This document shows, piece after piece, positions 293-29,100 of a stretch of DNA of 33,675 nt; within the stretch, counting starts at the first letter, position 1; each line of letters begins with the position of its first letter. The translations under genes and the position numbers were made by a program. The notes under the pieces were generated by a model. That model did no database searches. It was not told the origin of the DNA and was given only the letters and a program-made list of their open reading frames with translations. The stretch is from positions 1-33,675 of the forward strand of contig MWDG01000028.1 in assembly GCA_002070455.1 (NCBI GenBank). Direction: 5' to 3'. Origin of the DNA: Deltaproteobacteria bacterium ADurb.Bin151 (lineage in GTDB: Bacteria > Desulfobacterota > Syntrophia > Syntrophales > Smithellaceae).

Positions 293-1537
293 ATGCAATT
301 TGAGTTCCTTCTGTTTATAATTTTTCTGGCGTTGACCACCATCGTCAGTTTTATTTATGCAATATGGCGGGGACGAAATGATGAACAGATCCTGCGAAGC
401 ATTCTCCAGGGTTCTCCGATTCCAACTTTCGTCATCTCAACAGATCATACCATCCTTCACTGGAACAAAGCATTGGAAGGGCTCAACGGCATCAAGGCCA
501 GTCAGGTCATCGGCACCAACCAGCAATGGCGGGCATTCTATTCGGCGCCCCGCTCCTGCATGGCTGATTTGATTTTGAGTGACAAAATCAGTCACTCCAT
601 GAGCCTTTACCAGGGAAAGGTTATAAAATCAAAACTGGTCAGAGACGCCTACGAAGTAACGGAATTTTTCCCCGAACTGGGCGAAAAAGGAAAATGGTTC
701 CGTATAACCGCAGCAAAACTTCGCGATTCAAGCGGCCGCATATTCGGCGCCATGGAAACCCTGGAAGACATCACAGAACAGAAAAACGCCGAAGAAGAAC
801 TGCTCAAAAGGACAAAAAATGAATCGCTGGGAACATTTGCTGACGGTGTAGCCAAGGATTTTGACAGCCTGCTCACGGCCATTCTGCGCAACGTTTTTCT
901 GGCCAAAATATCCGCAAGCGAAGAAGACAAGATTCTGGAAAACGGGCTTGCCATAGCCGAACGGGCAGGTCTTCAGGCCAAGGAACTTGCACACCGCCTG
1001 ATTACATTTGCCCAGGGTGGATATCCGGTTAAAAAGAATGAAAGGCTGGATACGATCATCAAAGAGGCTGTCCAAAAAGTTCTTGAAGATTCCAACGTGA
1101 CGTGCCAGCCGGTGATCGCGCCGGACCTCTGGCCGACAGAGATTGACGCGATGCAGATTAAACAGGTGATCGAAAACATGATTACCAATGCGAAAGAAGC
1201 CATGCCGGATGGCGGGGTGATCGATGTGATCGCGGAAAACACGACAACCGGAACGAACATCCGGACCATGGGCAAGGGCAATTACGTCCGGATCATCATC
1301 AAGGACCGCGGCATCGGTATTCCCCGTGAAAACCTCTCAAAAATATTTGATCCTTATTTCACGACCAAAGAGAATAAGGACCGGGGTGGCATCGGACTCG
1401 GGCTGGCCATCTGTGACTCCATCATTAAATACCATAACGGGCTGATCACGGTGGAATCACTTGTGGGTGTCGGCACAACTTTCATGGTTTACCTGTCTGC
1501 AACCCCGAACGACGCAAGAAATGGCAAGTCGTCATAA
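293..1537 (+). CDS. PAS-domain sensor histidine kinase with His-to-Lys substitution in the H-box
   Basis: This 414-residue protein starts with one membrane segment (about residues 4-24). A PAS domain follows (about 34-165), then a HisKA-like region (about 178-240) and an HATPase domain (about 270-408). The ATP-binding boxes look intact: N-box with NMITNAKEAM, G1 with DRGIGIP, G2 with GIGLGLAI. The H-box reads GVAKDFDSLL where the family has GxAHDFNNLL, so the phospho-acceptor His is Lys188 (codon AAG at 854-856). The PAS is very similar to that of the kinase at 16131-18353. GGAG stands 6 nt before the ATG. It probably binds ATP but cannot autophosphorylate at the usual site. It may be a pseudokinase, a regulator of a partner kinase, or decaying. 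The reading frame is otherwise undamaged. Its 3' end overlaps the convergent small ORF by a few bases. Confidence 0.85.
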   Translation: MQFEFLLFIIFLALTTIVSFIYAIWRGRNDEQILRSILQGSPIPTFVISTDHTILHWNKALEGLNGIKASQVIGTNQQWRAFYSAPRSCMADLILSDKISHSMSLYQGKVIKSKLVRDAYEVTEFFPELGEKGKWFRITAAKLRDSSGRIFGAMETLEDITEQKNAEEELLKRTKNESLGTFADGVAKDFDSLLTAILRNVFLAKISASEEDKILENGLAIAERAGLQAKELAHRLITFAQGGYPVKKNERLDTIIKEAVQKVLEDSNVTCQPVIAPDLWPTEIDAMQIKQVIENMITNAKEAMPDGGVIDVIAENTTTGTNIRTMGKGNYVRIIIKDRGIGIPRENLSKIFDPYFTTKENKDRGGIGLGLAICDSIIKYHNGLITVESLVGVGTTFMVYLSATPNDARNGKSS

Positions 1538-2595: not shown

Positions 2596-3486
2596 TTATG
2601 ATGCCTCTTCCTGCATCGCCTCGAAACCGGCAACGATATCGAGAAGCTCTTCGGTAATCGTCATCTGACGCGTACGGTGAAACTGCACGTGCAGATCCTG
2701 CAGCTGCTCTTCAATGTTTTTCTCGGCGTTTTGCATGGAAGCCAGCCGGCTTGCATTTTCACTGGCCAGCGATTCGGCAAACGCCCGGTAAAGCGATACA
2801 AACAGGTACTCCCGAATCAAGGAAGAAAATATCCGGTCCCCATCCATCCGGAAAATGGGCAGGGACTTGGAATCCCATTTCTTCCTGGCTATTTCTTTCA
2901 GCCATTCACGGTTGACCGGCAGCAGCTGAACCATATGAGGATGATAAATCGCTCCGCTGACATATTTATTATAAAACAGGAAAAAATGATCGATGCTGTG
3001 GCGGAAATGCCATTCATCAATGATCATGATAATCTCCTGCACCAGAGGTGTTATGCCTGCCGTAGAACCGGGAGTGGGCAATAACTCGTCAACAGTCTGC
3101 CCGGCATCTTCCACATAGTCGGCCACGCGGGCACCGATCGCCAGTACTTTCCGGTTGTCCTTTTTCACACCGGCATTTTGAGCGTGATCCAGCGTGAAGA
3201 CGGAAATCTGTTCATTGAGCTGTCCGCAAAGACCCTGATCGGAACCGAAAATGATCACTCCCATACGTTTTATCGTGGTTGTCTTTCTCTGAAGCATTGC
3301 CCCCATTCTTTCCTTGAGGACAATCTGCAGTCCCATCTCGACGGCGTGGTTATAATCCGTAAGGGATTCAACAGCCTTCTGGTATTGACGAATGCTGACC
3401 GCCGCCAGGGCTTTCATCGTTTTCACGACCGACAAAAGATCCCCCGCACTTTTCATTCTTCTTTTAAGAGACTCAGTTGTTTGCAT
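2596..3486 (-). CDS. atpG: N-type ATPase gamma subunit
   Basis: This 296-residue protein is the central-stalk gamma subunit of F1. Its N-terminal helix begins [20 protein letters not shown], then [20 protein letters not shown], and its C-terminal helix contains [20 protein letters not shown], followed by [19 protein letters not shown]. These are the coiled-coil ends that turn inside the alpha/beta hexamer. I chose the start at 3486 rather than the in-frame start at 3516. GAGGA stands 5 nt before it, and homology begins there. The gene overlaps the end of atpA by 14 nt, so translation is probably coupled. It is the last subunit gene of the operon, as in other N-ATPases. Confidence 0.93.
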
Positions 3487-5041
3487 TGACTTCCTCAACC
3501 TCTTCAAAAGGCGCAATAACGGGTTTGATTTTATTCATGACGCTGTCTCGGTCCGCCAGCTCCAGTTTTTTACCTTCCTCGATACGGCTGCACAATTCCG
3601 GCAATTGTTCATTGACAGCGGCAAGCAGATGCCCCTCCACCTCACGGACTTTTTCCGTAGGCACAAGATCCAGAGCGCCGCCGGTTACGGAAAGCAGGGA
3701 GGCAATCTGTTCGGAGGCTTTGAGCGGTTTGTACTGTCCCTGTTTCAGAATTTCACGAACGCGCCAGCCCCGCTCCAGTGTACGCCTGGTACTGTCATCC
3801 AGACGCGTGCCAAAACGGGAGAAGGACTCCAGTTCTTCAAACTGCGAGTAGGAGAGCCGGAGGTCACCCGCCACGGAACGATAAGCGGGAAGTTGCGTTT
3901 TACCTCCCACGCGGGATACGGATTTACCAACATCGACCGCCGGCAGAATACCCTTGCTGAATAGAACCGGCGAGAGATAAATCTGCCCATCCGTAATGGA
4001 AATCAGATTGGTCGGAATGTAAGATGACATATCTTGCGCTTCCGTTTCGGTAATTGGCAGAGACGTCAACGACCCGCCGCCCAGTTCCGGCTTCATATGC
4101 GTGGAACGCTCCAGCAGCCGGGAGTGAATGTAAAAGATGTCGCCGGGAAAAGCTTCTCGTCCGGGCGGCCGCCGCAAAAGCAGCGACACTTCCCGGTAGG
4201 CCCTTGCGTGTGATGTCAGATCGTCGTAAACAATCAAAACGTCCCTGCCCTGCTCTACAAAATATTCCCCCATGCTCGTAGCGGCGTAAGGCGCGATAAA
4301 CTGCAGGCCCGGTGTGTCTTCGCCGGTGGCCACCACCACAATGCAGGAGCCCATCACGCCATGATCCCGTAAATCGGCAATCACCTTGGCCACATCAGCG
4401 CTTTTCTTGCCGGTGGCGCAATAAATAGAAATAATACCGGTTTCCTTCTGGTTGATAATCGTATCCACGGCAATGGCCGTTTTACCGGTCATTCTGTCGC
4501 CCAGGATTAATTCGCGCTGGCCGCGCCCAACGGGAATGAGCGCATCAATCACCTTGATGCCTGTCTGCAACGGCACAACAACCGGCGCGCGGTCCATAAC
4601 CGCCGGCGCTGGTCTTTCCACCGGCAGACGCATGACCGTATTGACTTCTCCCAGACCGTCCAGCGGACGACCGAGAGGATCGACCACCCGTCCCAAAAGT
4701 CCGTCTCCAACCGGCACATCCAGGACGCGCTTGGTGCGCTGAACTTCCGATCCGACCTGCAGATTTTCACTGGGATCCAGAAGAACAACCCCGATCTCCT
4801 TGGGGTCAATATTGAATACCAGCCCCATATAATTTCCGGTAAACCGCACCAGTTCCTCTGCCCGGATGTGCGGCAGGCCGCTCACCCTGGCAATGTCCCG
4901 TCCGACAAATTCTACCTGGCCTACCTCATATTGCCTCAGTTCAGGATTCTGTTCGTCCAGAACCTTGTCCATGGTGTCAAATGTATCGTCCAGAAACGTC
5001 TTTAATTCCTGGCTTTCCAATTTACTAACCTCTGAATTCAT
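3473..5041 (-). CDS. atpA: N-type ATPase alpha subunit
   Basis: The 522-residue protein is the non-catalytic alpha subunit. It has an N-terminal beta-barrel region (about 40-110), the nucleotide-binding domain with P-loop GDRMTGKT (about 180-187; most F-type alpha subunits have GDRQTGKT), the segment [20 protein letters not shown] with [12 protein letters not shown] after it, and a helical C-terminal domain. The ATG is preceded by GAGGAGG. It lies downstream of atpF across a 109-nt gap that contains a repeat cluster, the widest gap in the operon. The protein assembles with beta in the alpha3-beta3 head in the cytoplasm. Confidence 0.96.
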
Positions 5042-5055
5042 TCCACGCCTCCTCT

Positions 5056-5149
5056 AATAGGCTGTAGACTGTTAGACTGTAGACTGTTAGGCTTTAAGCT
5101 CTTAACCTTTAGAATGTTTGGCTATTAGTCTACAGCCTAACAGCCTATT
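5056..5149. repeat. Direct/inverted repeat cluster between atpF and atpA
   Basis: The gap holds two direct copies of CTGTAGACTGTTAG (within 5062-5090) and a matching inverted arm. GGCTGTAGACT (5060-5070) is the exact reverse complement of AGTCTACAGCC (5127-5137), and AATAGGCTGT (5056-5065) matches ACAGCCTATT (5140-5149) in reverse. RNA from either strand could fold into a long stem. It sits inside an operon, so it may affect RNA stability or partial termination rather than end transcription. It may also be a copy of a dispersed intergenic repeat. Confidence 0.75.
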
Positions 5150-5150
5150 C

Positions 5151-5921
5151 TCATGCCGCATGCGCCTCTCTCTGAAGAGTTTCCGTCAGACTTTCCACAA
5201 GCGTCTCAAGATATTCATTCAAACTCCAGGCAATTTTGTTTCCGTTCACCCGCAGTTCAATGCCCGAAACAATATCCGGCTCACGCAGATAACGGATCGT
5301 AAAACCATTGGTGATCTGCTTTTTCAGCGCTTCTTCGATTTGTGCCTGTTTTGGTTCGGCAATACCGAAGGCGCTCTGGATGACGACCTTGTTGCCACCG
5401 CCGCTGATCGCCTTTCGAATCTGAACACTTTTTTCTTCATCAAGTTCTTTGACGCGACGGATAAATTCATCCACGATCCGATCTTCCAGTTCCACATCCG
5501 CCAGATCAGCCAGAGCCTTGCGCGCCGTGGCATATAGTTGCTTCGCGGCCCTCTGGCGCAAATCATAGAAAAAGGCGTCCTGTTCGCGAACCAGCATGTC
5601 CTGCCATCTTGCCTTTACGGCATCAACATCCCTGCGCACCTGATCCATCAGTTCCTTGCGTTTGGCATCGGCGGCCATGGTTGCTTCATTGAGCATGATT
5701 TCTTTTTTCTCATGAAGCATCCGGTTGCGCTTTTCGTAAAGCTCAGCTTCCTCGTTAGCCTTGACTTTCAGATCCTCGGCTTCAGCAAAACGCGCTGTGA
5801 TTTTCGCTTCACGGTCATCCATGGCCTTGATGATACGCCCGTAAAGAAAGCGTTTCAGCAAGTACATGAGCAGGAGGAAATTAAAGATTTGCGCTAAGAA
5901 AACAAACCAGTCGATATGCAT
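5151..5921 (-). CDS. atpF: N-type ATPase b subunit with delta-like C-terminal part
   Basis: The 256-residue protein starts with one membrane anchor (about residues 5-24, after MHIDW) followed by a long charged helix (about 35-160), the usual peripheral-stalk b subunit. It is about 90 residues longer than an ordinary b subunit. The C-terminal third (about 165-250) contains REPDIVSGIELRVNGNKIAW, which resembles the GG-[IV]-x-[IV]-x-[IV] end of the delta subunit. No separate delta gene exists in the operon, so I infer that this protein also does delta's job of joining the stalk to the head. This is a known feature of N-ATPases. Its ATG is 12 nt after the end of atpE. Confidence 0.92.
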   Translation of the reverse strand: MHIDWFVFLAQIFNFLLLMYLLKRFLYGRIIKAMDDREAKITARFAEAEDLKVKANEEAELYEKRNRMLHEKKEIMLNEATMAADAKRKELMDQVRRDVDAVKARWQDMLVREQDAFFYDLRQRAAKQLYATARKALADLADVELEDRIVDEFIRRVKELDEEKSVQIRKAISGGGNKVVIQSAFGIAEPKQAQIEEALKKQITNGFTIRYLREPDIVSGIELRVNGNKIAWSLNEYLETLVESLTETLQREAHAA

Positions 5922-14784: not shown

Positions 14785-16134
14785 TCAGGAATCACCTTTT
14801 GTGCCGGCCAGCTTTCGCTGCAGTTGCCTGAGCGTGATTCCCAGAATGCGGGCGGCTTCACGTCGGTTGCCGCCGGTGGAATGCAAAACATACATCACAT
14901 GGGCTGCATCATTTTCCTTGAGTGTACAAAGGCTGCGACTTGACAGGGACGGTTGAAATTCCATCGCCGGACTGTCTCCCAGGTTCACGGGTAGGATGAC
15001 CGGGCCTTCGGCAAGCAAAACGGCATTTTCCACGATCTGAGAAAGTTCACGGATATTCCCGGTGTAATCTCTACGGGCAAGCACTGTCATGGATTCGGGA
15101 CTGAACCCGGAAATGTTTTTATTGTGGCGCGCACAGGCATTTTGTAAAAAATGTGCCGCAAGCAGAGGGATGTCATTTCTTCTTTCCCTAAGCGCCGGCA
15201 GGCAAATGGTTGCAGATTTCAAACGATACAGCAGATCGATTCGGAAATGGCCCTCCTGGCAGGCGCGGTCCAATTCTCTATTTGTTGCCGAAATCAACCG
15301 GACATCCACACGCACGGGATGACCGGCCCCCAGCGGCGTGAACGTTTTATCTTCCAATACACGCAGGAGTTTTGATTGAAGGCCGATCGGCAACTCGCCA
15401 ATTTCATCGAGAAATAAAGTACCCCCGTCCGCCTGCTGAAAGAAACCCTGGTGAGAACCATCTGCACCGGTAAACGCGCCTTTGACGTGTCCGAAAAACT
15501 GGCTTTCAAACATGGTGGCCGGTATAGCCGAAACGTTCACCGCCACAAAAGGTCCGTCAGGAGCCGGACCGGCACGGTGAATGCCTCGCGCCATCAGTTC
15601 CTTGCCGGTACCCGACTCACCTGTAATCAAAACCGGATTGCCGCTGCGTGCCATGACCTGAGCATAGGAAATCAATGCTTTCATCTGGGTGTTTTGCGTA
15701 AGGGTATCGGAAAATGCCGGAGGTATTTCTGCCGCCTGGCAACTGGCAGTGACGGACAAACCTGCCAGCAGCCCTTTTCTTTCATAAGCCCTTTCAATGG
15801 ATAAGATAAGCAGTTCATTATCCACCGGTTTGACCAGATAATCGTAAGCGCCCTGCCGCATCGCCTTTACAGTGGTTGAAATATCATCAACGGCTGTCAG
15901 GATAATAAATTCCGTGCCCGGGCAATAGGGTTTTGTCGATTCCAGTACCTGCATGCCGTCCACCTCGGGCATGAGTAAATCCAGAAGAACAACATCAAAA
16001 TTCTCCTGACGGATTTTCCGGATCGCCTCACTTCCGCTGTCACAGATTTCTATGTTCTTGAGTCCATGCCATTTGAGAATTCTCTTGACTGAGGTAAGGG
16101 ACACTTCCTCGTCATCGACGATCAATATTTTCAT
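14785..16134 (-). CDS. Sigma-54-dependent response regulator (NtrC family)
   Basis: The 449-residue protein has a receiver domain (about 1-120: ILIVDDEE, phospho-acceptor Asp in VVLLDLLMPEVDG, Lys in YLVKPVD). A central AAA+ sigma-54 activator domain follows (about 145-380: P-loop GESGTGKE, GAFTGA loop, Walker B GGTLFLDEIGEL, and the RLKSATICLPALRERRNDIP region). The C-terminus is a Fis-type helix-turn-helix (about 405-445: GGNRREAARILGITLRQLQR). All key residues are intact, so it should activate sigma-54 promoters when phosphorylated. Its ATG overlaps the stop of the PAS kinase gene as ATGA, so the two form a coupled two-component pair. Targets are unknown. Confidence 0.95.
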   Translation of the reverse strand: MKILIVDDEEVSLTSVKRILKWHGLKNIEICDSGSEAIRKIRQENFDVVLLDLLMPEVDGMQVLESTKPYCPGTEFIILTAVDDISTTVKAMRQGAYDYLVKPVDNELLILSIERAYERKGLLAGLSVTASCQAAEIPPAFSDTLTQNTQMKALISYAQVMARSGNPVLITGESGTGKELMARGIHRAGPAPDGPFVAVNVSAIPATMFESQFFGHVKGAFTGADGSHQGFFQQADGGTLFLDEIGELPIGLQSKLLRVLEDKTFTPLGAGHPVRVDVRLISATNRELDRACQEGHFRIDLLYRLKSATICLPALRERRNDIPLLAAHFLQNACARHNKNISGFSPESMTVLARRDYTGNIRELSQIVENAVLLAEGPVILPVNLGDSPAMEFQPSLSSRSLCTLKENDAAHVMYVLHSTGGNRREAARILGITLRQLQRKLAGTKGDS

Positions 16135-18353
16135 AGCTGTTGTCTCCCCGCTTCATGGATGACTTTCTGAAGTTTTTCGATGGTAAAAGGCTTTTGCAGT
16201 GTGCAATCCGGTTGTGTTATGTTTCGGGATGGCGCCTTGAGCGCCATGGGATCGGCCGAGTAGAGAATGAACGGCAACAGGGGATATTTTGTTTTAATTT
16301 TATCCATAAGGTCCCACGCACTGAATCCTTTTAAACGGGCTTCGGAAACAATCATATCGACTTCCGGATTCTCCTCTAAAAAAGCTAGAATGTCCCCCAC
16401 TTTGTCTTTCGATTCCGAACGCCAGATTACCGCGTCCAAAAAATTGGCTTTGAGCTCTTTGAGATATTTCACATTGTAGTCAATGCACAAAATAGACGGA
16501 TACAGATTGAGATTGACGTTGCCTTCCACGGGCAGGTAAATCGAAAACCGGCTTCCTTTTCCGGGACGGGAGAGCACTCCGATGGTGCCTTGGTGTTCCT
16601 TGATCAGTCCATATGAAATGGAAAGTCCCAGGCCCGTGCCATCAAGCTCCCTTCGCGTGGTAAAAAAGGGATCAAAAATGTGCTCCATCGTCTTGCGATC
16701 AATGCCCTTTCCATTGTCTTCGATATCCACGACCACGGATTTTAAGCGGTCAATGTAACGGCAGCGGATGCTGATGACGCCTTTTTGACCTTCGGGTATT
16801 GCCTGATGCGCGTTAATCAACAGATTGGCCATCACCTGCTCGATTTTCTGAAAATGTCCGTAAATCGGAGGAATTTTTTTGGCAATCTCTTGATCGATTC
16901 TGGACACGTTTCTTCTGATCTGTGCTCCCACAATCACCAACGCTCCTGCAATTACATCCGGAACGGAGACCATTTTTTTCTGTGTGGCTTCATCGGAACG
17001 GGAAAATTCCTTCAAACTCGTGATGACCCGGCTGATACGGTTGGCACCGATTTTAAACGCCTGGATAATCTCCCGCATATTACTGCTCACTTCCTCATAG
17101 GACAAACCTCTTTTCTCCCAGTCGGAATGGTGCGACCCGCTACGTACCAGAATATCCTCCACCGTGTTCCAGATTTGTTCCAGAATGGGAACATTGTACG
17201 CGATAAAGCTGACAGGATTGTTGATCTCATGGGCAACACCCGCAACTACCTCACCCAGCGCAGTCAGTTTGTGTGTCTGAATCATCTGTTGGAGTCTTAA
17301 TTCCCCTTCCTGACGGATTTTTTTGTCCTCGGTGACATCCTGCCAGGCACCGACAATATAGCTGGTTGATCCGGCCGGAAGGTGAACGATCCGCCAGTAA
17401 TCGGAAAACCAGCGGTAGGTGTCGTCTATCACCCGGAACCGATAGCTGTACCGGTGTGTCCCTTTCTCGCGCTCCGTTTGCAGACCTTCCATGACGCGCG
17501 CCCGGTCATCCACGTGAACATGGTCTATCCAGAAATTTTCATCGTCTATAAAGCATTGCGGCGAATATCCTGTGATCTCTTCAATGGTACTGCTTACAAA
17601 AGTGATTGCGAAATTACCGTCCACCTTTCGCGTATAGGAAATAATCGGCAGGGATTCCAGAAGCAGGGACAGATGATCGGTGGTCTGTTTGAGTGCCTTC
17701 TGCGTCCGGTGACGTTCCATCAGTTCATTCAGCAGGGCCTCATTGGCCCGGGCGAGTTCCGCGGTTCTGATTTTGACGCGCTCTTCCAGGTCCTGATGCA
17801 CTTTCAGCAGCAGCATTTTTGCTTTTTTCCGGCGGCTGATATCTTCCAGAGTTTCGATTGCTCCTATCAGATCACCGGTTGAATTGCGGATAATGGCCGC
17901 TGTAAATCGCAGCCATTTACCCTGATGTCCAAGTTCGGGGAAAAAATCGATGGCTTCGTAGGCCTCGTCGAGCAATTTGGACTTCACGTACTTCCCGGCA
18001 TACCATTTGGAGATCTTTTCCTGGCCACGGTTGACCAGAAGATCTGCCATGCAGGGACGCTTGCTACTGTAAAATGCCCGCCATTGCTGTGACGTACCTA
18101 TAACGTCTTCGGCTTTTATTTTGGTAAGTTCTTCCAGGGCTTTGTTCCAGTAGAGAATCCGGTGATTTTTATCGATCACAAAAGCGGGAATCGGCAGGCC
18201 ACCGATGACACTGTGCAGCCTCTGCTCGTTTTCCTTGAGCTCATTTTCCGCACGTTTCCTTTTAATTTCCGATTGACGGATCTCTTTGAGCTTCTGGCGC
18301 AGCTTTTTGATTTCAGAAACCAGATCATCATTCGATTGCTGCCTCTTTTTCAT
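16131..18353 (-). CDS. PAS-PAS sensor histidine kinase with degenerate C-terminal receiver
   Basis: The 740-residue cytoplasmic protein has an N-terminal coiled coil (about 1-48), PAS1 (about 49-175), a second coiled coil, PAS2 (about 225-345), HisKA with intact GVAHEINNPVSF, and HATPase with N-box (NLLINAHQAI), G1 (DNGKGID) and G2 (GTGLGLS) intact. A receiver-like domain follows (about 625-738). Its phospho-acceptor position is Glu671 (MIVSEARLKG; codon GAA at 16343-16341) and its acidic pocket reads CIDYN. Ser (LYSAD) and Lys (LQKPF) remain. The kinase should pass phosphate to the coupled NtrC-type regulator. The receiver cannot accept phosphate at Asp and may mimic the active state. Start 18353 has GGGGTGG upstream and is preferred over a GTG at 18371. 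Confidence 0.92.
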   Translation of the reverse strand: MKKRQQSNDDLVSEIKKLRQKLKEIRQSEIKRKRAENELKENEQRLHSVIGGLPIPAFVIDKNHRILYWNKALEELTKIKAEDVIGTSQQWRAFYSSKRPCMADLLVNRGQEKISKWYAGKYVKSKLLDEAYEAIDFFPELGHQGKWLRFTAAIIRNSTGDLIGAIETLEDISRRKKAKMLLLKVHQDLEERVKIRTAELARANEALLNELMERHRTQKALKQTTDHLSLLLESLPIISYTRKVDGNFAITFVSSTIEEITGYSPQCFIDDENFWIDHVHVDDRARVMEGLQTEREKGTHRYSYRFRVIDDTYRWFSDYWRIVHLPAGSTSYIVGAWQDVTEDKKIRQEGELRLQQMIQTHKLTALGEVVAGVAHEINNPVSFIAYNVPILEQIWNTVEDILVRSGSHHSDWEKRGLSYEEVSSNMREIIQAFKIGANRISRVITSLKEFSRSDEATQKKMVSVPDVIAGALVIVGAQIRRNVSRIDQEIAKKIPPIYGHFQKIEQVMANLLINAHQAIPEGQKGVISIRCRYIDRLKSVVVDIEDNGKGIDRKTMEHIFDPFFTTRRELDGTGLGLSISYGLIKEHQGTIGVLSRPGKGSRFSIYLPVEGNVNLNLYPSILCIDYNVKYLKELKANFLDAVIWRSESKDKVGDILAFLEENPEVDMIVSEARLKGFSAWDLMDKIKTKYPLLPFILYSADPMALKAPSRNITQPDCTLQKPFTIEKLQKVIHEAGRQQL

Positions 18354-18455
18354 GATTCCACCCCATACCACGCATTGAATAATGACATGATTGACTGGCT
18401 TTCCACAACTGGACCGGCTGCAATGTTAGATTCTGTTTGAATGCAATGCAATTCA

Positions 18456-18651: not shown

Positions 18652-20754
18652 ATGGAAAAGTTTTTCAGCCCCCGCAGTATTGTAGTTTTCGGCGCATCCG
18701 CCACCAAAATGAATCTGGGACAAATCGTTTTACTTAATAATAAACAAATCGGCTATGAAGGGAATCTATACGGCGTCGGCTCTCAGGAGGGCGACGTGAA
18801 TGGCATTCATATCTACACGAGCGTTGCCAGTCTTCCCGAAACACCCGACGTTGCCATTTTTCTAACGCCTGCTAAAACGGTACCCGGCCTGATGAGGGAA
18901 TGCGGAGAAAAAGGCATTACGCACGTCGTTATCGAATCCGGAGGTTTCAGCGAATACTCACACGGCGATCACACGCTGGAATATGACGTTCTGGCCGTTG
19001 CAAAAAAATACAACATGAAGGTCATCGGTCCCAACTGTGTGGGAACGGTAAACTTTGACATGAAAATGATGATGCCGTTTGCCTTTTTCAAAAATATCCC
19101 GACAGGCGGCAGGCTGGGGCTCATTTCGCAAAGCGGCGGTGTGGGCGGCTCTTATCTGCGCGCAGTGGCCGGTTACGGCATCAAACCCGGCAAGTTCGCG
19201 GCCACCGGGAACAAGCTTCAGCTGGATGAGGCCCACTTTCTTGACTATTTCATCAAAGATCCAAAAACGGACATCATCGCGATGTATCTTGAAGGTTTCA
19301 AGAGAGGACGGGAATTTTTCGATCTGGCGCGAGGGTGTGATAAACCCATCGTTATACAGAAATCAAACCGTTCACCTATCAGCGCGAAAATCGCCCAGTC
19401 CCACACAACGGCACTTTCCAGCGATGACAGCGTCGTGGACGGCGCCTTCAGACAGGCGGCCATTATTCGTGTGGATGATGAACTGGAATTTGTTAATGCC
19501 ATCAAAGTCGTCCGCATGCCCTTGATGAAAGAACGTCGCGTGGCGGTGCTTTCACGCTCGGGCGGCCACGCGGTGCTGACCGCCGACGCCTGCGCGAAAT
19601 ATGGTTTTGAAATGGTCCCTTTCCCGCCATCCTTTATTGAAAAACTCAAAACCATCTACAAGACGCGCGTCATCGCTCATCAGAATCCGCTGGATCTGGG
19701 CGAGATTTTTGACTACACCATTTTCACGGATATTCTGGAAGAAGCCCTCAAACTGGAAAATTACGACGGCGTCTTATTCAATCATCTGTACTCTTCAGAT
19801 TTTGAAGGAGAGATGTCCCGCACTTTCCTGGCCGGTGTGGAAAAGCTGGTTGAAAAATATGCCAAACCGGTTTGTCTGACCATGATTTCCGACCGTGAAG
19901 AACTTCTGAAAATACAGCAGAGTCAACCCTTTCCCATTTTCACATCCCCACTGGAAGCGGCCACGGCGCTCCATGTATCACGAACCTATCACGAACTGAA
20001 AACCCTTCGTGACGGCCGAGGCAAACTGCCGGACTATAGTCTGGATCTGGATATGGTGAAAACGATCCGGTCCCGCTGTGTTCATGAACAGCGCATCGCA
20101 CTAACGGATGAAGCCCTGACAATCTGCGCCTCGGCCGGTCTGCAACCGGTGAAAGACATGCTGATTAAGAACGAAATCCTGCCGGAGAAGATTCCCCTGC
20201 ACTATCCGCTGGCCGTAAAACTTGTCTCGCGCGACGCATCGCATAAATCAGACGTGGGGGGCGTGGCGGTAAACATCCGCAATAAAAAGCAGCTGTCCGA
20301 AACCCTCGTTTCAATGAAAGATAAAATTCAAAAGATTGCCAATCCACCGGCTATCGACGGATACCTGCTCCAGGAGATGGCACCTGAAGGGATTGAATGC
20401 TTCGTCGGGGGACGCCGTGATCCGGCCTTCGGACCCGTTATTGTGGCAGGTCTGGGGGGAATCTTTATTGAAATATTCAAAGATACTTCCATCCGTCTGG
20501 CACCGGTTACACCTAATGAAGCGGCCAATATGATGAAAGAACTGAAAGCCTATCCGCTGCTTCAGGGCGCCAGGGGGAAAAAACCCGCGGATTGTCAGGC
20601 GCTGGTTGATATCATTTGCAGGACATCCGCCCTGCTTGCCGCCTGTCCCGACATTACCGAAATTGACCTGAATCCAGTCATTGTGCACCCGGAAGGTCAG
20701 GGCGCGAGTATCGTTGATGCACGAATTTTTTTTGAGGAGCCGACCGTTACCTGA
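18652..20754 (+). CDS. Acetate/acyl-CoA ligase (ADP-forming), fused alpha-beta
   Basis: The 700-residue protein joins the alpha and beta parts of NDP-forming acyl-CoA synthetase. It has a CoA-binding Rossmann domain (about 1-125: SIVVFGASATK and IGPNCVGTVN) and a CoA-ligase domain (about 140-300: LISQSGGVGGS; the phosphohistidine is His251 in AQSHTTAL). A second ligase/linker domain follows, then an ATP-grasp domain (about 480-695: AVKLVSRDASHKSDVGGVAV, then GGRRDPAFGPVIVAGLGGIF). It converts acyl-CoA, ADP and phosphate to acid, CoA and ATP, usually for energy conservation in fermenters and syntrophs. Substrate specificity cannot be read from sequence. AAAGGAG lies 10 nt before the ATG. It is monocistronic, with a hairpin after its stop. 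Confidence 0.94.
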   Translation: MEKFFSPRSIVVFGASATKMNLGQIVLLNNKQIGYEGNLYGVGSQEGDVNGIHIYTSVASLPETPDVAIFLTPAKTVPGLMRECGEKGITHVVIESGGFSEYSHGDHTLEYDVLAVAKKYNMKVIGPNCVGTVNFDMKMMMPFAFFKNIPTGGRLGLISQSGGVGGSYLRAVAGYGIKPGKFAATGNKLQLDEAHFLDYFIKDPKTDIIAMYLEGFKRGREFFDLARGCDKPIVIQKSNRSPISAKIAQSHTTALSSDDSVVDGAFRQAAIIRVDDELEFVNAIKVVRMPLMKERRVAVLSRSGGHAVLTADACAKYGFEMVPFPPSFIEKLKTIYKTRVIAHQNPLDLGEIFDYTIFTDILEEALKLENYDGVLFNHLYSSDFEGEMSRTFLAGVEKLVEKYAKPVCLTMISDREELLKIQQSQPFPIFTSPLEAATALHVSRTYHELKTLRDGRGKLPDYSLDLDMVKTIRSRCVHEQRIALTDEALTICASAGLQPVKDMLIKNEILPEKIPLHYPLAVKLVSRDASHKSDVGGVAVNIRNKKQLSETLVSMKDKIQKIANPPAIDGYLLQEMAPEGIECFVGGRRDPAFGPVIVAGLGGIFIEIFKDTSIRLAPVTPNEAANMMKELKAYPLLQGARGKKPADCQALVDIICRTSALLAACPDITEIDLNPVIVHPEGQGASIVDARIFFEEPTVT

Positions 20755-20894: not shown

Positions 20895-22199
20895 TCAATT
20901 CACCAAATCCGGCCTGACAGCATTGCCCCTGTGTGGAATGCCCTCACAATCTTCACGCGAAACCGGCAGATACAGCACAAAAGACAAACCGCATCCGATC
21001 TTACTGTATGCATTAATAAATCCATTATGATCCCTGATCACTTCACGGACAATGGACAACTCGAGCCCTGTAGCACTTTTTTTCATGAATTTTTTTGCAT
21101 AAAAAGGCTCAAACAGATGACAAACCTCTTCATCCTCAAGTCCGCCGCCCGTGCTGCTGATTGATAAGACCACGTATTCACCTTCACACAAGTTATCCTC
21201 ATACCGAACCGGACAGCCAAGATAGACCGTTCTTGTGGCAATTGAAATCACGCCGTCGGGTTCAGTCTGCTTAAACGACAGGGACAAAAGATCCAGAATG
21301 GACTTGTCCAGTTGAGACAACGAAGCATTCACATTCCGCAGGGAAGGTTCAAAATCCATCTTTATTGTTACATCAGGATACCGCTGTGATAATTTTTGAA
21401 ATTCATTTTTTTTCAGACACGCCTGGATTCTTTCATTGATATAGATGATCTGGCGATTCTCTTCGTCCTTACGGGATACCGCCAGAAGATCCTGGATAAA
21501 GGTCACTGCCCGTTCCCCTGAATCAATGATATTGCCGACATGGTCATGAAATGCATTGCTGCCCGGACCATCGCATGAACTCAGAATCTCTCCGTGAGCG
21601 ATAATGCCGCCCATGAGACGATTGAGCTCACGGGCAACACCGTTGGTAATATTCACCAAACAGGACATTTTTTCCGCTTTATTAAATGCTTCTTCGTATC
21701 TTTTCCGGCTGGTTTCCTGTTTTTTGAAACCGCTGATGTCCCGCAGGATGCCCTGATATCCAATCACCTTTCCGCTCCTGTCGCGTATCGGACTGGAACT
21801 GATGCCGACCCAACAATATGTACCGTCTTTCCTTTTCATCTGAAGTTCATAGAATGCAAGCGCTGTCTGAACCCCCCTCGCTTCATCATTCATCCGCGAA
21901 CTGTTGCCTTTATACAGTTTCTCTATGCTTTCCGGAGACAAAAAATCCATAAGAGATCGTCCGATAAAATCTTCACTTTTGAATCCGCCGGTGACCGTGC
22001 CGCATGCCGCATTGGTAAAAGTAATCTTGAAATTTGTATCTACCTGCCAGAAGGCTTCAAAAGCGTGATCAACAATATACTGGATATCTTTTGATTCTTT
22101 CCCGTCGTTTGTTCCCGCACAGTCCTTTTCAGGAGGCGCATCGGTGGCAAAAGTGGTTTGTTTGACATCATTGAATTGATTTTCAGTTTCATTAACCAT
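20895..22199 (-). CDS. PAS protein with a degenerate histidine-kinase core (pseudokinase)
   Basis: The 434-residue protein has a variable N-terminus (1-35), one PAS domain (about 40-165: VDTNFKITFTNAACGTVTGG, then DGTYCWVGISSSPIRDRSGK) and a kinase-shaped C-terminal half. In the H-box position it reads GVARELNRLM, with Arg190 in place of His. The N-box reads LDLLSLSFKQTEPDG without the Asn. G1 reads SSTGGGL without the Asp, and G2 reads ATGLELS. It therefore lacks every residue needed for ATP binding and autophosphorylation, yet has kept full length and an open frame. I used the ATG at 22199; a GTG at 22217 is possible. A perfect -35 (TTGACA) lies upstream at 22497. It is probably a PAS-based scaffold or sensor acting through dimerisation. 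Confidence 0.85.
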   Translation of the reverse strand: MVNETENQFNDVKQTTFATDAPPEKDCAGTNDGKESKDIQYIVDHAFEAFWQVDTNFKITFTNAACGTVTGGFKSEDFIGRSLMDFLSPESIEKLYKGNSSRMNDEARGVQTALAFYELQMKRKDGTYCWVGISSSPIRDRSGKVIGYQGILRDISGFKKQETSRKRYEEAFNKAEKMSCLVNITNGVARELNRLMGGIIAHGEILSSCDGPGSNAFHDHVGNIIDSGERAVTFIQDLLAVSRKDEENRQIIYINERIQACLKKNEFQKLSQRYPDVTIKMDFEPSLRNVNASLSQLDKSILDLLSLSFKQTEPDGVISIATRTVYLGCPVRYEDNLCEGEYVVLSISSTGGGLEDEEVCHLFEPFYAKKFMKKSATGLELSIVREVIRDHNGFINAYSKIGCGLSFVLYLPVSREDCEGIPHRGNAVRPDLVN

Positions 22200-22468
22200 T
22201 CTGATTTTTAACCTCACAAAATTTAATCATCATCCGGGAATAATGCTTTCTTCATTCGACCCATTGAGCCACCATGGAAGATCGCTTAAAAAATCCTTAC
22301 AGGCTTACAGCATAAAAAAACGATTTTTGATTGATTCTCCGTCCAAAATGAATTATTCATTGAAACATCTGCAGAATGCTGGTCCCGGAAAGTCGATGGG
22401 TTGCGTGCATCGCTGATCCATCAACCGGAAATTATGGCATTCTTCATAAATACATTTATTGGGCTGCA

Positions 22469-22679: not shown

Positions 22680-22814
22680 AAATTGGATCACATCAAACAT
22701 TCATAATAAAACGGTTTTTATGGCCGATGAACGTCATGCCGCATTTTCGTCCATACCGAAAAACTTTTGCGCCGCATAGGCCATGAATTTTTTATAAAAA
22801 AGGAACCTGTGAAC

Positions 22815-25760
22815 ATGAAGATTGCAAAAAAAATTCTCACCGTCGTCATCATTTTTGCGGTAATCATCGGCATTATTGGATTCCTTATCCTTCCATATGT
22901 GATCAAGCCGATTGCAACCGAAAAGATTTCCAAGGCTCTGCATCGGGAAACGTCCATTGATCAGATAAAAATCAATCCCTATTCTCTTTCCGTAACCATC
23001 AGGGGTTTCAAACTGGCTGACCCCGGTCAGGAAAAACCGTTTGTCGCATTTGATGAACTTTACGTTAATGCCGGGGCCTTTGTCTCGATCTTCAGGCGCG
23101 CTCTGATCCTGGAAGAAATCAGACTCAATAAGCCTTATGTCGGGATCACCCGCAACACGGACGGAACGTATAATTTTTCCGATTTGATTCCCAAAGAGGA
23201 AGCCAAAAAAGAAGAGCCTTCAAAACCTTTTCTTTTTTCACTCAACAATATTCAGATCACGGGCGGCAATATTGATTTTCGTGATTTGCCGAATAAAACC
23301 AGCCACACCGTGCGTGATCTTCAACTGGCAATCCCCTTCGTTTCCAATATTGAATATTACATGAAAAATTACGTTCAACCAAGATTTTCGGCCTTCGTGA
23401 ACGGTCATGGTGTGGCAATCGGAGGGAAAACAAAACCTTTTCTGACATCACGGGAAACCTCTTTAATCATCGACATGAAAAATATTGATGTTCCCTATTA
23501 CCTGCAATATGTGCCCGTGAAAATGAACTTTAAACTGACCGAGGCACGGCTGGACACGAATATCCATGTCAATTTCATCATGCCCGAGGGGAAATCGCCA
23601 GAGCTGAAACTGACTGGACATGCTGTTTTAAGAAGCCTGAATATAGTCGACCCGCAGGGAAACAAAATCCTTCGTCTTCCCGCACTGAAAGTGAATCTTG
23701 CTTCCATTGAACCCTTTAAGCCCTCGGTCCATCTGTCTCAGATCGCCCTCGATGCCCCCGAGCTTGTGATCAAGCGTGACAAGTCCGGCAAAATCAATCT
23801 ATCAAAGCTTATCGACCCGGGAAAGAAGCCTCAGGGGACAAAGCCTCCGGCCTCTGCTGCAAAAAAGGAAGTCAGCAACGAAAAGAAAAAAGAACTTACC
23901 CTGCTTGTTGACAATCTTCTGATTGACAAAGCCGACATCACCTTCACCGACGAACAGCCGCGCAAGCCGGTAAAAATTCAGATCAATCCCCTGCGCCTGA
24001 ATGTTTCCAAAATATCGCTTAGCAAGGGCGATTTGGCCAATGTTGACCTCTCCCTGATCATGGATCAAAACACAAATATTACCGTTAAAGGCCCGGTCAG
24101 TTTCCAGCCGCTTTCCGCCGATCTGGCGCTGAATGTGAAGGATCTTGCCATCCGGCCGTTCCAGCCCTATTTTAGCGATGCCGTGCAACTGGACATCACG
24201 CGAGGTTCAATATCAACGGACGGAAAATTTTCCATGAAGATGGACGCAAAAAACAAACCCGTCATCAAATATCTGGGGGGACTTTCTATCGCACAATTTG
24301 CCTCCATCGATCAGATTCACACGCATGATTTCTTGAAATTCAAGCAGCTTGATTTCAACTCTCTGGACGTCGGATACAATCCACTTTCTGTGTCAATCAA
24401 GGAAATTGCGATTCGTGATTTCTTTTCCAAAATCGTCATCAATAAAGGCGGCACCACGAACATCCAGGATATCATGAGCCCGCCGAAAAAATATGCAGGA
24501 CAGAAAACCCCGCCCGGTCCCGAACCTCCCAAACCGGCTGAACATGCAAAATCCTCTCAGAAACCGCCGGACATTAAAATCAGCAAGGTCAGCTTTTTGG
24601 GTGGCACAGTAGATTTTGCTGATTACAACATCAGGCCGAACTATGCCGTGAAGATGCTCAACCTCAAAGGAAGCGTAACGGGGCTTTCATCGCAGGAGAT
24701 CTCACGGGCAAAAGTGAAACTGAAGGGCAATATCGGCTATGGGTCGCCCCTGTATATCGCCGGGACCATCAATCCTCTGAAAAAGGACCTTTTCGCTGAT
24801 ATTAAAATCAACTTTAAAAATCTTGAAATGAGCCAGATGACGCCCTATGCGATTAAATTTCTGGGCTATCCTATCATTAAAGGAAAACTCAATTTTGATG
24901 TGTCCTATCTGGTCGATAAGAGGAAACTCACCGCCGAGAACAAGATTTTCTTTGACCAGCTCACTTTCGGGGATAAAGTGGACAGCCCCGACGCCATCAA
25001 AGCACCCGTGACACTGGCAGTATCCCTGTTAACCGACCGCAATGGGCAGATCAAACTGGATATTCCGTTGTCCGGAAGCCTGGACGATCCCAAGTTTAGA
25101 GTGTGGCCGCTAGTGTGGCAGATCCTCGTTAATCTTATTACCAAGGCGGTCACGGCACCTTTCTCTCTTCTGTCTTCTGTAACCGGTGGCGGAGACGAAA
25201 TGAGCTTTGTCGAATTTGACTACGGCAGCTCGGTTCTTGCGGAAGATGGCAGGAAAAAAATTGAAGCCCTGGCCAAGGTACTTTACGACCGTCCCAGCCT
25301 GAAACTGGATATTGAAGGCTACGTTGACCCGGCAAAGGATAAAGAAGGTCTCAAGCAGGCGGAACTTCATCGTCTGATGAAAACCCAGAAGCTCAAAGAA
25401 ATGGCTGACAAGGATCAGCAGACCATGCCGCTCAAGGATATTACGATTACTCCTTCTGAATATGAAAAATACCTTACACTGGCGTACAAAGCAGCCAGGT
25501 TTTCCAAACCGAGGACGGCACTGGTCATCCCTAAAAAATTGCCGCGGGCCGAAATGGAAAAACTGTTTCATGACAACATCCCCGTCACAGACAACGACTT
25601 AACAGAGCTTGCAGCCAAACGCGCAGAGGCCGTCCGCGAACAGCTTCTGCAGGACAGTAAAGTCGAACCGGCACGGATTTTTATTGTTAAAGCTCCATCG
25701 CTGGCGCCGGAGAAAAAAGAAAAAGCGAAAAACAGCCGGGTGGGTTTTAAATTGAAATAG
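22815..25760 (+). CDS. DUF748 (AsmA-like) envelope protein with OmpA-like C-terminal segments
   Basis: The 981-residue protein has an N-terminal membrane anchor (about residues 5-32) followed by a long beta-rich periplasmic body typical of DUF748/AsmA-like proteins (for example FVAFDELYVNAGAFVSIFRR, then LILEEIRLNKPYVGI). Low-complexity Lys/Pro linkers fall near residues 110-125, 335-360 and 560-590. Near 805-850 an OmpA-like start appears (FVEFDYGSSVLAEDGRKKIE, DIEGYVDPAKD). Its expected second half (AAKRAEAVREQLL, then RIFIVKAP) appears only near the C-terminus, after an insertion of about 80-100 residues. The ATG at 22815 with AAGGA upstream is preferred over a TTG at 22767. AsmA-like proteins are linked to lipid transport and envelope integrity; the role here is inferred. 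Confidence 0.88.
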   Translation: MKIAKKILTVVIIFAVIIGIIGFLILPYVIKPIATEKISKALHRETSIDQIKINPYSLSVTIRGFKLADPGQEKPFVAFDELYVNAGAFVSIFRRALILEEIRLNKPYVGITRNTDGTYNFSDLIPKEEAKKEEPSKPFLFSLNNIQITGGNIDFRDLPNKTSHTVRDLQLAIPFVSNIEYYMKNYVQPRFSAFVNGHGVAIGGKTKPFLTSRETSLIIDMKNIDVPYYLQYVPVKMNFKLTEARLDTNIHVNFIMPEGKSPELKLTGHAVLRSLNIVDPQGNKILRLPALKVNLASIEPFKPSVHLSQIALDAPELVIKRDKSGKINLSKLIDPGKKPQGTKPPASAAKKEVSNEKKKELTLLVDNLLIDKADITFTDEQPRKPVKIQINPLRLNVSKISLSKGDLANVDLSLIMDQNTNITVKGPVSFQPLSADLALNVKDLAIRPFQPYFSDAVQLDITRGSISTDGKFSMKMDAKNKPVIKYLGGLSIAQFASIDQIHTHDFLKFKQLDFNSLDVGYNPLSVSIKEIAIRDFFSKIVINKGGTTNIQDIMSPPKKYAGQKTPPGPEPPKPAEHAKSSQKPPDIKISKVSFLGGTVDFADYNIRPNYAVKMLNLKGSVTGLSSQEISRAKVKLKGNIGYGSPLYIAGTINPLKKDLFADIKINFKNLEMSQMTPYAIKFLGYPIIKGKLNFDVSYLVDKRKLTAENKIFFDQLTFGDKVDSPDAIKAPVTLAVSLLTDRNGQIKLDIPLSGSLDDPKFRVWPLVWQILVNLITKAVTAPFSLLSSVTGGGDEMSFVEFDYGSSVLAEDGRKKIEALAKVLYDRPSLKLDIEGYVDPAKDKEGLKQAELHRLMKTQKLKEMADKDQQTMPLKDITITPSEYEKYLTLAYKAARFSKPRTALVIPKKLPRAEMEKLFHDNIPVTDNDLTELAAKRAEAVREQLLQDSKVEPARIFIVKAPSLAPEKKEKAKNSRVGFKLK

Positions 25761-27051: not shown

Positions 27052-29100
27052 TTAATTTTTTCCGGGACCCAGAAGTTCCTGTATTTTTTTCAAAATATCC
27101 AGAGGCAGAACCGGTTTTTGCAAAAAATGAATTTCTCTTTCCATAAGATGATCAAAGTCAAGCATATTTTCCAAATACCCGCTCATGAAAATCACCTTCA
27201 CATCCGGCTTCATCGCTCTGATTTCACGGTAGGCTTCCCTGCCGTTTTTCTTCGGCATGATACCGTCAAGCATTACCAGCGATACTTTTTCTCTGTTTTC
27301 GCTGAACTGCTTCACTGCTTCCACGCCATCGGCAACGCCGATCACCTCATAACCCCGTTCGGTCAGTATTGTCGTGATCAGATCACGGATTCCCGAATCA
27401 TCCTCTGCAACCAGAATAGTTCTTGCCCCTCCCTGCTCGATGTATTCCTCTGTTTTGCTTCCATTCACATCTTCAGCGGCCTGAACAATCGGCAATAAAA
27501 TCCGTACTCGGGTACCTTTGCCGGGTTCGCTCTCCACGGTAATAAAACCATTGTGCCTGCTTACAATATTGTAAACAATCGTCATCCCCAGGCCGGTCCC
27601 CTTGCCGGGTTCCTTGGTTGTAAAAAAAGGTTCAAAGATCTTATCAAGGGTTTGCCGATTCATGCCCCTTCCCATGTCTGCCATCGTTATCTGGGCATAA
27701 GAACCGGTTCTGCCGTATCCATTGGATTTGATGAATTCCTGATCAATCTCTGTCATGTTTGTGGCAATGATAATTAATCCTCCGTCGGGCATGGCATCAC
27801 GAGCGTTGGTTGCCAGATTCATGATGACCTGTTCCAATTGGACCTGATCCACCAAAACAGAAAGTTTCTGGGATGTAAACTGGGTTTGTATTTCTATATT
27901 TTCCGGCATCAGTCGAAGCAGAAGTTTCTGAAAATCGGAGATTAAATCATTAACGTTGAAACAGGACAAATTTGTTGTCTGTTTCCGGCTGAAAGCAAGC
28001 AGGCTTTTGGTTATGGTCGCGGCTTTTTCCGAATAGTCCAGAATGTGCTTGATGTGCCCCCTGTTTGTATCATCATTCTGCATATTCAGATAAACCAGCT
28101 GGGCGTAACCGATGATTGCGGTCAGAATATTGTTGAAGTCATGCGCCACGCCTCCCGCCAGCTGGCCGATACCCTCGAGCTTTTGCGACTGGATCAGCTG
28201 TGCCTCAAGCTGCCTTTTCTCCGACGTGTCTTCCATGATCATCATCATGCTGTTGACGCGACCTTCGGGATTTTTCAGCGGCAACAGGGTCAGGTACGCC
28301 CAAAAACATTCACCGTCTTGCTTCTTGATTTGCATTTCACCACGCCAAATGTTATCCGCTCCGACACTTTCCCACGCCTCCTGAAAATCATCGGTCTGTG
28401 ATCCCGTTGGTTGAAGACTCTTGACATTTAATCCAATCATATTCCGAGGGGCATATCCGCTGATCCTGAAAAATTGCGGGTTGACATATTCTAAATTTCC
28501 GTTGACATCCATTAAGACGAACGCCACCGGACTTTCTTCTATGGACTGACTGAGTTTAAACAATTTTTCTTCAGTTTGCTTGTGCTTCTCAATCTCCTGG
28601 TTCAGGCGCCGGTTAAGCAGCTCCAGATCCAACACTTTTTTCTCCAGTTTACGAAACAGAATCTCATTATACTGTCTGAAAAATTCCATCTCCGATCCCA
28701 GCGGCTGATATTGTGCAGATTGAACAACATGATCCTTCTCAATGATTTCTTTGATCGTTTCAATAATAACATTCGGTTCCTGCGGCTTGATTATAAACAG
28801 ATCAGCACCGAGGTTTTTTGCAAACGTCTCATCTTTGGGATCGGTATAAGTCGCCGTGTAAAATATGAAGGGGATATTTTTGAGGTGATCATCAGATTTC
28901 CAGATTTTGCATAACGTGTATCCATCCATGACCGGCATAAGAATGTCGCTGATAATCAGATCCGGCGGATTTGCGTAAGCCTTGTCGAGGGCCGCCTGAC
29001 CGTTTTGGGCGGACATCACCTCCATTTGATGACCCCCGAGCACCTTTTCCAGAATATAGCGATTTTCCGCCACATCATCGACAATCAGCACTTTTTTCAT
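27052..29100 (-). CDS. Hybrid histidine kinase: receiver-PAS-HisKA-HATPase-receiver
   Basis: The 682-residue protein has an N-terminal receiver (about 1-125: [11 protein letters not shown], Asp in [13 protein letters not shown], Lys in FIIKPQEP), a helical linker, a PAS domain (about 178-300) and HisKA with intact [14 protein letters not shown]. The HATPase domain has [21 protein letters not shown] and GKGTGLGM, and a second receiver follows (about 560-678: Asp in [12 protein letters not shown], Lys in FLQKPV). G1 reads ADMGRGM with the Asp kept. No membrane segment is present. Both receivers are complete, so it can act as a multi-step phosphorelay. It lies last in a four-gene cluster, 15 nt after the lone receiver gene. 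Its end is 17 nt from the convergent DUF4185 gene. Confidence 0.95.

Follow-up and report, generated by a model that had tools for sequence, protein, structure and literature searches.

Background

Pseudo-histidine kinases are already known as a kind, from a few systems (DivL, RetS and NifL). RetS of Pseudomonas aeruginosa has the architecture of a kinase, with a degenerate HATPase that lacks G-boxes and with C-terminal receiver domains; its target is a partner kinase, GacS, whose autophosphorylation it inhibits, and it also acts as a phosphatase (PMC5992135). DivL of Caulobacter (PDB 4q20) retains DHp and CA domains, carries Tyr in place of the phospho-acceptor His and is without kinase and phosphatase activity; it senses DivK~P, still binds ATP weakly and gains a DivK~P-dependent autokinase activity when the Tyr is changed to His (PMC4211667). 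NifL of Azotobacter joins redox-sensing PAS domains to a kinase-like DHp/GHKL module and inhibits NifA by binding it without phosphotransfer (PMC12998174). In Corynebacterium glutamicum, a laboratory-evolved frameshift mutant of the sensor kinase ChrS with a dead CA domain (ChrS_CA-fs) heterodimerises with the paralogous kinase HrrS (PMC9491836).

Here we describe psK, a gene for a PAS-DHp-CA pseudo-histidine kinase in a Smithellaceae (Syntrophales) genome assembly. The window is the whole stretch of DNA that was analysed, 33,675 nucleotides in length, and psK occupies positions 20895..22217 of its minus strand. The nearest public relatives of psK were found in MAGs labelled Smithellaceae and HGW-Deltaproteobacteria-1. 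In the open-licence literature, no description of the psK orthogroup and no pseudo-histidine kinase in Deltaproteobacteria were found.

Methods

Residues of psK were numbered from the GTG start (subtracting 6 gives the numbering of an earlier note on this DNA), and canonical residues were taken from an alignment with 26 canonical Syntrophales paralogues. The psK of the present genome is denoted G000 and is included in the count of six orthologues. Pairwise dN/dS was estimated for three close species (G000, G017 and G016) by using a maximum-likelihood codon model (own script, F3x4). Uniqueness of the orthogroup was searched with a back-translated F-box/G2 pattern, for which reversed-pattern controls gave no matches.

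Domain layout and loss of catalytic residues

The psK frame may start at a GTG at 22217 (440 codons) or at the first ATG at 22199 (434 codons). As the earlier note had reported from the ATG, inspection of the ORF revealed no frameshift or stop, and this holds across all 440 codons. The product is soluble and without a receiver domain (Response_reg had no Pfam match in psK, and the ORF stops after the CA domain). The PAS-kinase order that had been read from the letters was recovered by Pfam, with matches to PAS_9 (1.3e-16) and HATPase_c (2.7e-11, 44.3 bits) and a HisKA match below threshold (21.6 bits vs a cut-off of 26.9). On the minus strand, the PAS domain spans residues 55-162 (21732..22055), the DHp/HisKA region residues 190-252 (21462..21650) and the CA/HATPase_c domain residues 308-420 (20958..21296). 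Neither a LOV-type Cys motif nor a conserved F-alpha His was seen by eye in the PAS domain, and no ligand is proposed. A promoter/terminator scan returned sites no commoner than in shuffled sequence.

The alignment agreed with the earlier note on each degenerate box (all on the minus strand). The canonical H-box GVAHDLNN reads GVARELNR in psK, and the phospho-acceptor His is Arg196 (CGT at 21630..21632; Arg190 in the earlier numbering); a further loss, beyond those in the earlier note, affects the transmitter-phosphatase motif, where Arg200 stands in place of the +4 Asn. At the N-box (LDLLSLSFK, 21270..21296), canonical NLLSNAxE has become DLLSLSFK, with Leu313 in place of the catalytic Asn found in 26 of 26 canonical paralogues. 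The G1 box SSTGGGL (21138..21158; canonical SDTGxGI) has Ser355 at the position of an Asp that is likewise present in 26/26. In the G2/ATP-lid SATGLELSIVR (21045..21077), canonical GTGLGL is altered to ATGLEL by replacement of Gly382 with Ala and Gly386 with Glu (Gly in 26/26); this segment contains the signature residues Glu386 and Arg391, where Gly and Trp are canonical. The F-box FEPFY is retained. Since independent assemblies show identical losses, these are not chance, and assembly error as their source was ruled out.

Judged by these residues, psK should not bind ATP normally, nor autophosphorylate, and the psK of this genome should not act as a transmitter phosphatase or as a phospho-acceptor. 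That it is still an active kinase with unusual residues is barely credible: the F-box, the last G2 residues and the fold are retained, but the His, the G1 Asp, both N-box Asn and two glycines of G2 have all been replaced together, and no other conserved His fills the position on the DHp helix. Automatic annotation of psK as a sensor histidine kinase would thus mislead.

The PAS-DHp-CA fold is predicted to be intact. An AlphaFold2 model (mean pLDDT 80, pTM 0.55, from an alignment of 35 sequences) contains the PAS domain, a pair of DHp helices and the whole CA domain, with low-confidence ends at residues 1-36 and 424-440 (pLDDT <50). The solved structures nearest to its DHp-CA part included ZraS, DivL, CckA and WalK/YycG, with Z near 20. 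DivL (4q20) matched over 220 residues with Z 20.9 and an rmsd of 5.5, level with many active kinases, so the structural match speaks for the fold of psK and not for its function.

Comparison with described pseudo-histidine kinases

The likeness to RetS lies in the kinase architecture and the degenerate HATPase. RetS has receiver domains and phosphatase activity, whereas psK has one PAS domain and no receiver, and the psK of this genome, unlike RetS, is without the His or a +4 Asn/Thr; the state of RetS is comparable to that of the psK ancestor (dead CA, His kept). With DivL, psK shares DHp and CA domains, a similar predicted fold and a replaced phospho-acceptor, which is Arg196 here and H, R or Q among the orthologues, in contrast to the Tyr of DivL; DivL keeps weak ATP binding, whereas psK has lost the residues of the ATP site themselves. 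The combination of a PAS sensor with a kinase-like module recalls NifL, but psK scored 49.2 bits against the NifL model TIGR02938 (NCBIfam), for which the cut-off is 242.45, and its neighbours are an acyl-CoA synthetase gene and a DUF748 gene instead of nifA. ChrS_CA-fs resembles psK as a CA-dead sensor kinase, one that pairs with a paralogue, but it arose in the laboratory whereas psK is an old selected gene.

Orthologues and chromosomal slot

A genus-wide search recovered five more psK orthologues, with identities of 86% (G017), 83% (G016), 52% (G008), 46% (G011) and 34% (G006). All six share one chromosomal slot within contig reach, convergent with a gene for an ADP-forming acyl-CoA synthetase-like protein (left neighbour, 18652..20754, plus strand) and divergent from one for a DUF748/AsmA-like protein (right neighbour, 22767..25760, plus strand); the G016 contig stops before DUF748, and G011 and G006 carry extra ORFs in the interval. 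In a tree with paralogues, the six proteins formed one clade with 100/100 support and a long stem.

In G013, G014 and G019, psK is missing from the slot and the synthetase gene lies directly beside the DUF748 gene without an intervening kinase, so psK is dispensable in these species. The empty-slot species G013 is the sister of G008 in the DUF748 tree, which implies at least one clean loss of psK, or transfer. At the loci without psK (L078, L081 and L082), the two flanking genes lie on the same strand, possibly as a single operon, which in other species would be interrupted by psK. The acyl-CoA synthetase gene of G017 (L053, 357-2268) is split, with a product of 382 aa, a second frame from 1504 and ~64 residues missing, which could be an assembly error or a real break.

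Across 155 genomes of the order, the FEPFY...GLEL pattern had seven matches, six of which were the psK orthologues, and none lay beyond the genus; the GLGL version gave about 230 matches in 68 genomes (summed per-genome counts). Among the genomes searched, the psK orthogroup is therefore seen in this genus alone. The seventh match, L110 (G011:C9, ~177451-177506), is a kinase with an intact His and a degenerate ATP site (N-box LNLIAGAC, G2 GTGLEF). It shares GLE in G2 and the lost N-box Asn with psK, yet it branches outside the psK clade on a long branch whose placement is unsure; it was rejected as an orthologue, and it probably lost its ATP site independently.

Order of loss

The N-box Asn is missing in all six orthologues, and all six have GLEL in G2. 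G334, E386 and R391 are likewise fixed in 6/6, at positions where D, G and W are fixed or nearly fixed in canonical kinases. The G1 Asp is retained in G011 and G006. The phospho-acceptor His is kept in three orthologues, G017 (codon CAT), G008 and G006; G000 and G016 have Arg there instead, and G011 has Gln. The residue at +4 is Arg in G000, His in G017 and G016, Asn in G008 and G006, and Asp in G011. Because the N-box loss and the new residues are common to all six proteins, the ATP-binding site, judged by sequence, died first, in their common ancestor; loss of the His came afterwards, in no fewer than two events, one giving Arg and another Gln. The DUF748 tree places G000 with G016 (99/97) and apart from G017, so that a single CAT-to-CGT change accounts for both Arg proteins, although the psK tree leaves the G000/G016/G017 node open.

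The earlier note would have taken a shared Arg together with a low dN/dS among orthologues as support for a functional pseudokinase. The dN/dS was low (see below), but only G016, one of the two closest relatives, shares the Arg. It had also held that close relatives with intact H, N and G1 boxes, together with relaxed selection, would mark psK as decaying; no orthologue was found with an intact N-box or G2. On this pattern of residues, the change that defines the orthogroup is an apparently dead ATP-binding domain, not the Arg.

The orthologues that keep the His invite another explanation, in which G008 and G006 (with His and +4 Asn kept) are still phosphotransfer or phosphatase elements, phosphorylated in trans by an ATP-competent kinase, and a complete loss of catalysis is confined to the G000/G016 and G011 lineages. 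The retained residues (His alone in G017), the transmitter phosphatase activity that RetS keeps with its degenerate HATPase (PMC5992135) and the presence in the same genomes of another kinase, which has no His but whose ATP site is intact, are in keeping with it. It is inapplicable, however, to the psK of the window, from which both residues are gone, and all orthologues are syntenic, with the His replaced in two lineages and the Arg lineage otherwise still constrained; we consider it unlikely.

Selection on psK

Whole-gene dN/dS of psK was 0.128 (G000-G017), 0.217 (G000-G016) and 0.214 (G017-G016), at dS of 0.35-0.56 among the three species and with no gaps or stops. Omega = 1 was rejected in each pair (LRT 154, 84 and 76, respectively), and psK is under strong purifying selection; genes adjoining it had dN/dS of 0.05-0.18. 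The PAS domain was the most constrained part, with 0.037 (G000-G017), 0.058 (G000-G016) and 0.038 (G017-G016), followed by the DHp region (0.12-0.20) and the CA domain (0.175-0.290, with 0.27-0.29 in pairs with G016). Active kinases of the same genomes (3 kinases, five pairs) had dN/dS of 0.13-0.45 in PAS, 0.04-0.17 in DHp and 0.09-0.21 in CA. Constraint on the psK PAS is thus two to ten times that of these active kinases, and the psK CA is modestly relaxed against theirs, with overlapping bootstrap intervals. Given its faster evolution, the CA surface may count less than the fold.

These values bear on whether psK is a decaying former kinase that has not yet acquired stops. The somewhat raised CA values in the G016 pairs and the lack of psK in the sister species G013 would fit decay, but neutrality was rejected, the PAS is held tightly, the frame is open in three species at this divergence and the degenerate residues themselves are kept across six species. 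Of 500 copies simulated under neutral mutation, none stayed open at any divergence tried. Pseudogene decay was rejected on the dN/dS values, the conserved degenerate residues and this simulation, and we regard it as highly improbable. Judged by its lost catalytic residues and the purifying selection on it, psK is a pseudo-histidine kinase. The earlier note had suggested selection for a non-catalytic role, and the whole-gene dN/dS (0.13-0.22, omega = 1 rejected), the syntenic orthogroup and the conserved degenerate signatures support that suggestion: psK probably has a selected, non-catalytic sensor role driven by its PAS domain.

Proposed role and candidate partners

By analogy with RetS, NifL and DivL, the best reading of psK is a soluble PAS sensor that would act through protein-protein contact. 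Its PAS domain would bind a cytoplasmic ligand or redox cue, and the ligand-dependent PAS state would alter the pose of the DHp/CA module. This module would then contact a two-component partner, be it a paralogous kinase (as RetS does with GacS), a response regulator (DivL with DivK) or a sigma-54 activator (NifL with NifA), and would modulate it without chemistry. That psK acts on a partner kinase in particular, by inhibiting it or allosterically, is a tentative version of this reading, for which the chances appear somewhat short of even. The roles named in the earlier note, PAS sensing through dimerisation and inhibition of a partner kinase, are plausible candidates.

Kinases of the window were considered as obligate neighbour partners and rejected, as neither a hybrid kinase (27052-29100) nor a kinase/NtrC pair (14785-18371) tracks the presence of psK. 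The hybrid kinase occurs in G013, a genome without psK, and no copy of it was found in the psK-bearing G011 and G006; the pair (14785-16134 and 16131-18371) is a feature of the genus at large, and in G008 the kinase of the pair is located elsewhere. The absence of a linked partner fits an orphan adaptor. The kinase of the pair (16131-18371, minus strand) has a C-terminal receiver-like domain that scored just 17 bits with Response_reg and may be a pseudo-receiver.

In another explanation, psK binds not a kinase but a response regulator or a sigma-54 activator, with its DHp reading or sequestering a (phosphorylated) receiver or AAA+ domain; this is possible but somewhat doubtful. The DHp dN/dS, inside the range of the active kinases or just above it, the place of DivL among the nearest structures, the precedents of DivL with DivK~P and NifL with NifA (PMC4211667, PMC12998174) and the sigma-54 response regulators of the genome (14785-16134) point in this direction, against which no linked response regulator accompanies psK and the DHp +4 position is not conserved.

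A second His-less kinase in the window

A second kinase without the phospho-acceptor His is encoded at 293-1537 (plus strand; 414 aa), with a PAS domain and an N-terminal hydrophobic segment that is probably a membrane segment. Lys replaces the His (GVAKDFDSLL), and the N-box (NMITNAKE), G1 and G2 (GIGLGL) are intact. The Lys was invariant in all of the 30 genomes that were checked, 18 of them in the genus and the other 12 in the family and in one more family, and in these the homologues were 66-95% identical to the window copy. Of the 155 genomes of the order, 57 carried homologues. On these counts, this candidate pseudo-histidine kinase is better conserved and more widespread than psK. Elsewhere in the window, subunits of an 'alternate' F1F0 ATPase (alpha and F0 B) are encoded at 3473-5921 (minus strand), above NCBIfam cut-offs.

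Conclusions

The psK orthologues might represent successive steps in the disarming of a kinase, in which the ATP site went first, the protein was kept as an acceptor phosphorylated in trans (maybe by the His-to-Lys kinase), and the phosphatase Asn and the His were then lost to leave a pure sensor-adaptor. This would be a long shot; if true, one kinase activity would have been naturally split over two half-dead proteins. Inside one genus, the orthogroup shows the ATP site going before the phosphatase Asn and the His, in a conserved slot, with empty-slot sister species as controls and with constraint shifted from the catalytic domain (CA dN/dS 0.18-0.29) to the PAS (0.04-0.06). Together, this order of loss, the empty-slot controls and the shift in constraint offer natural intermediates on which the path from kinase to adaptor can be tested.
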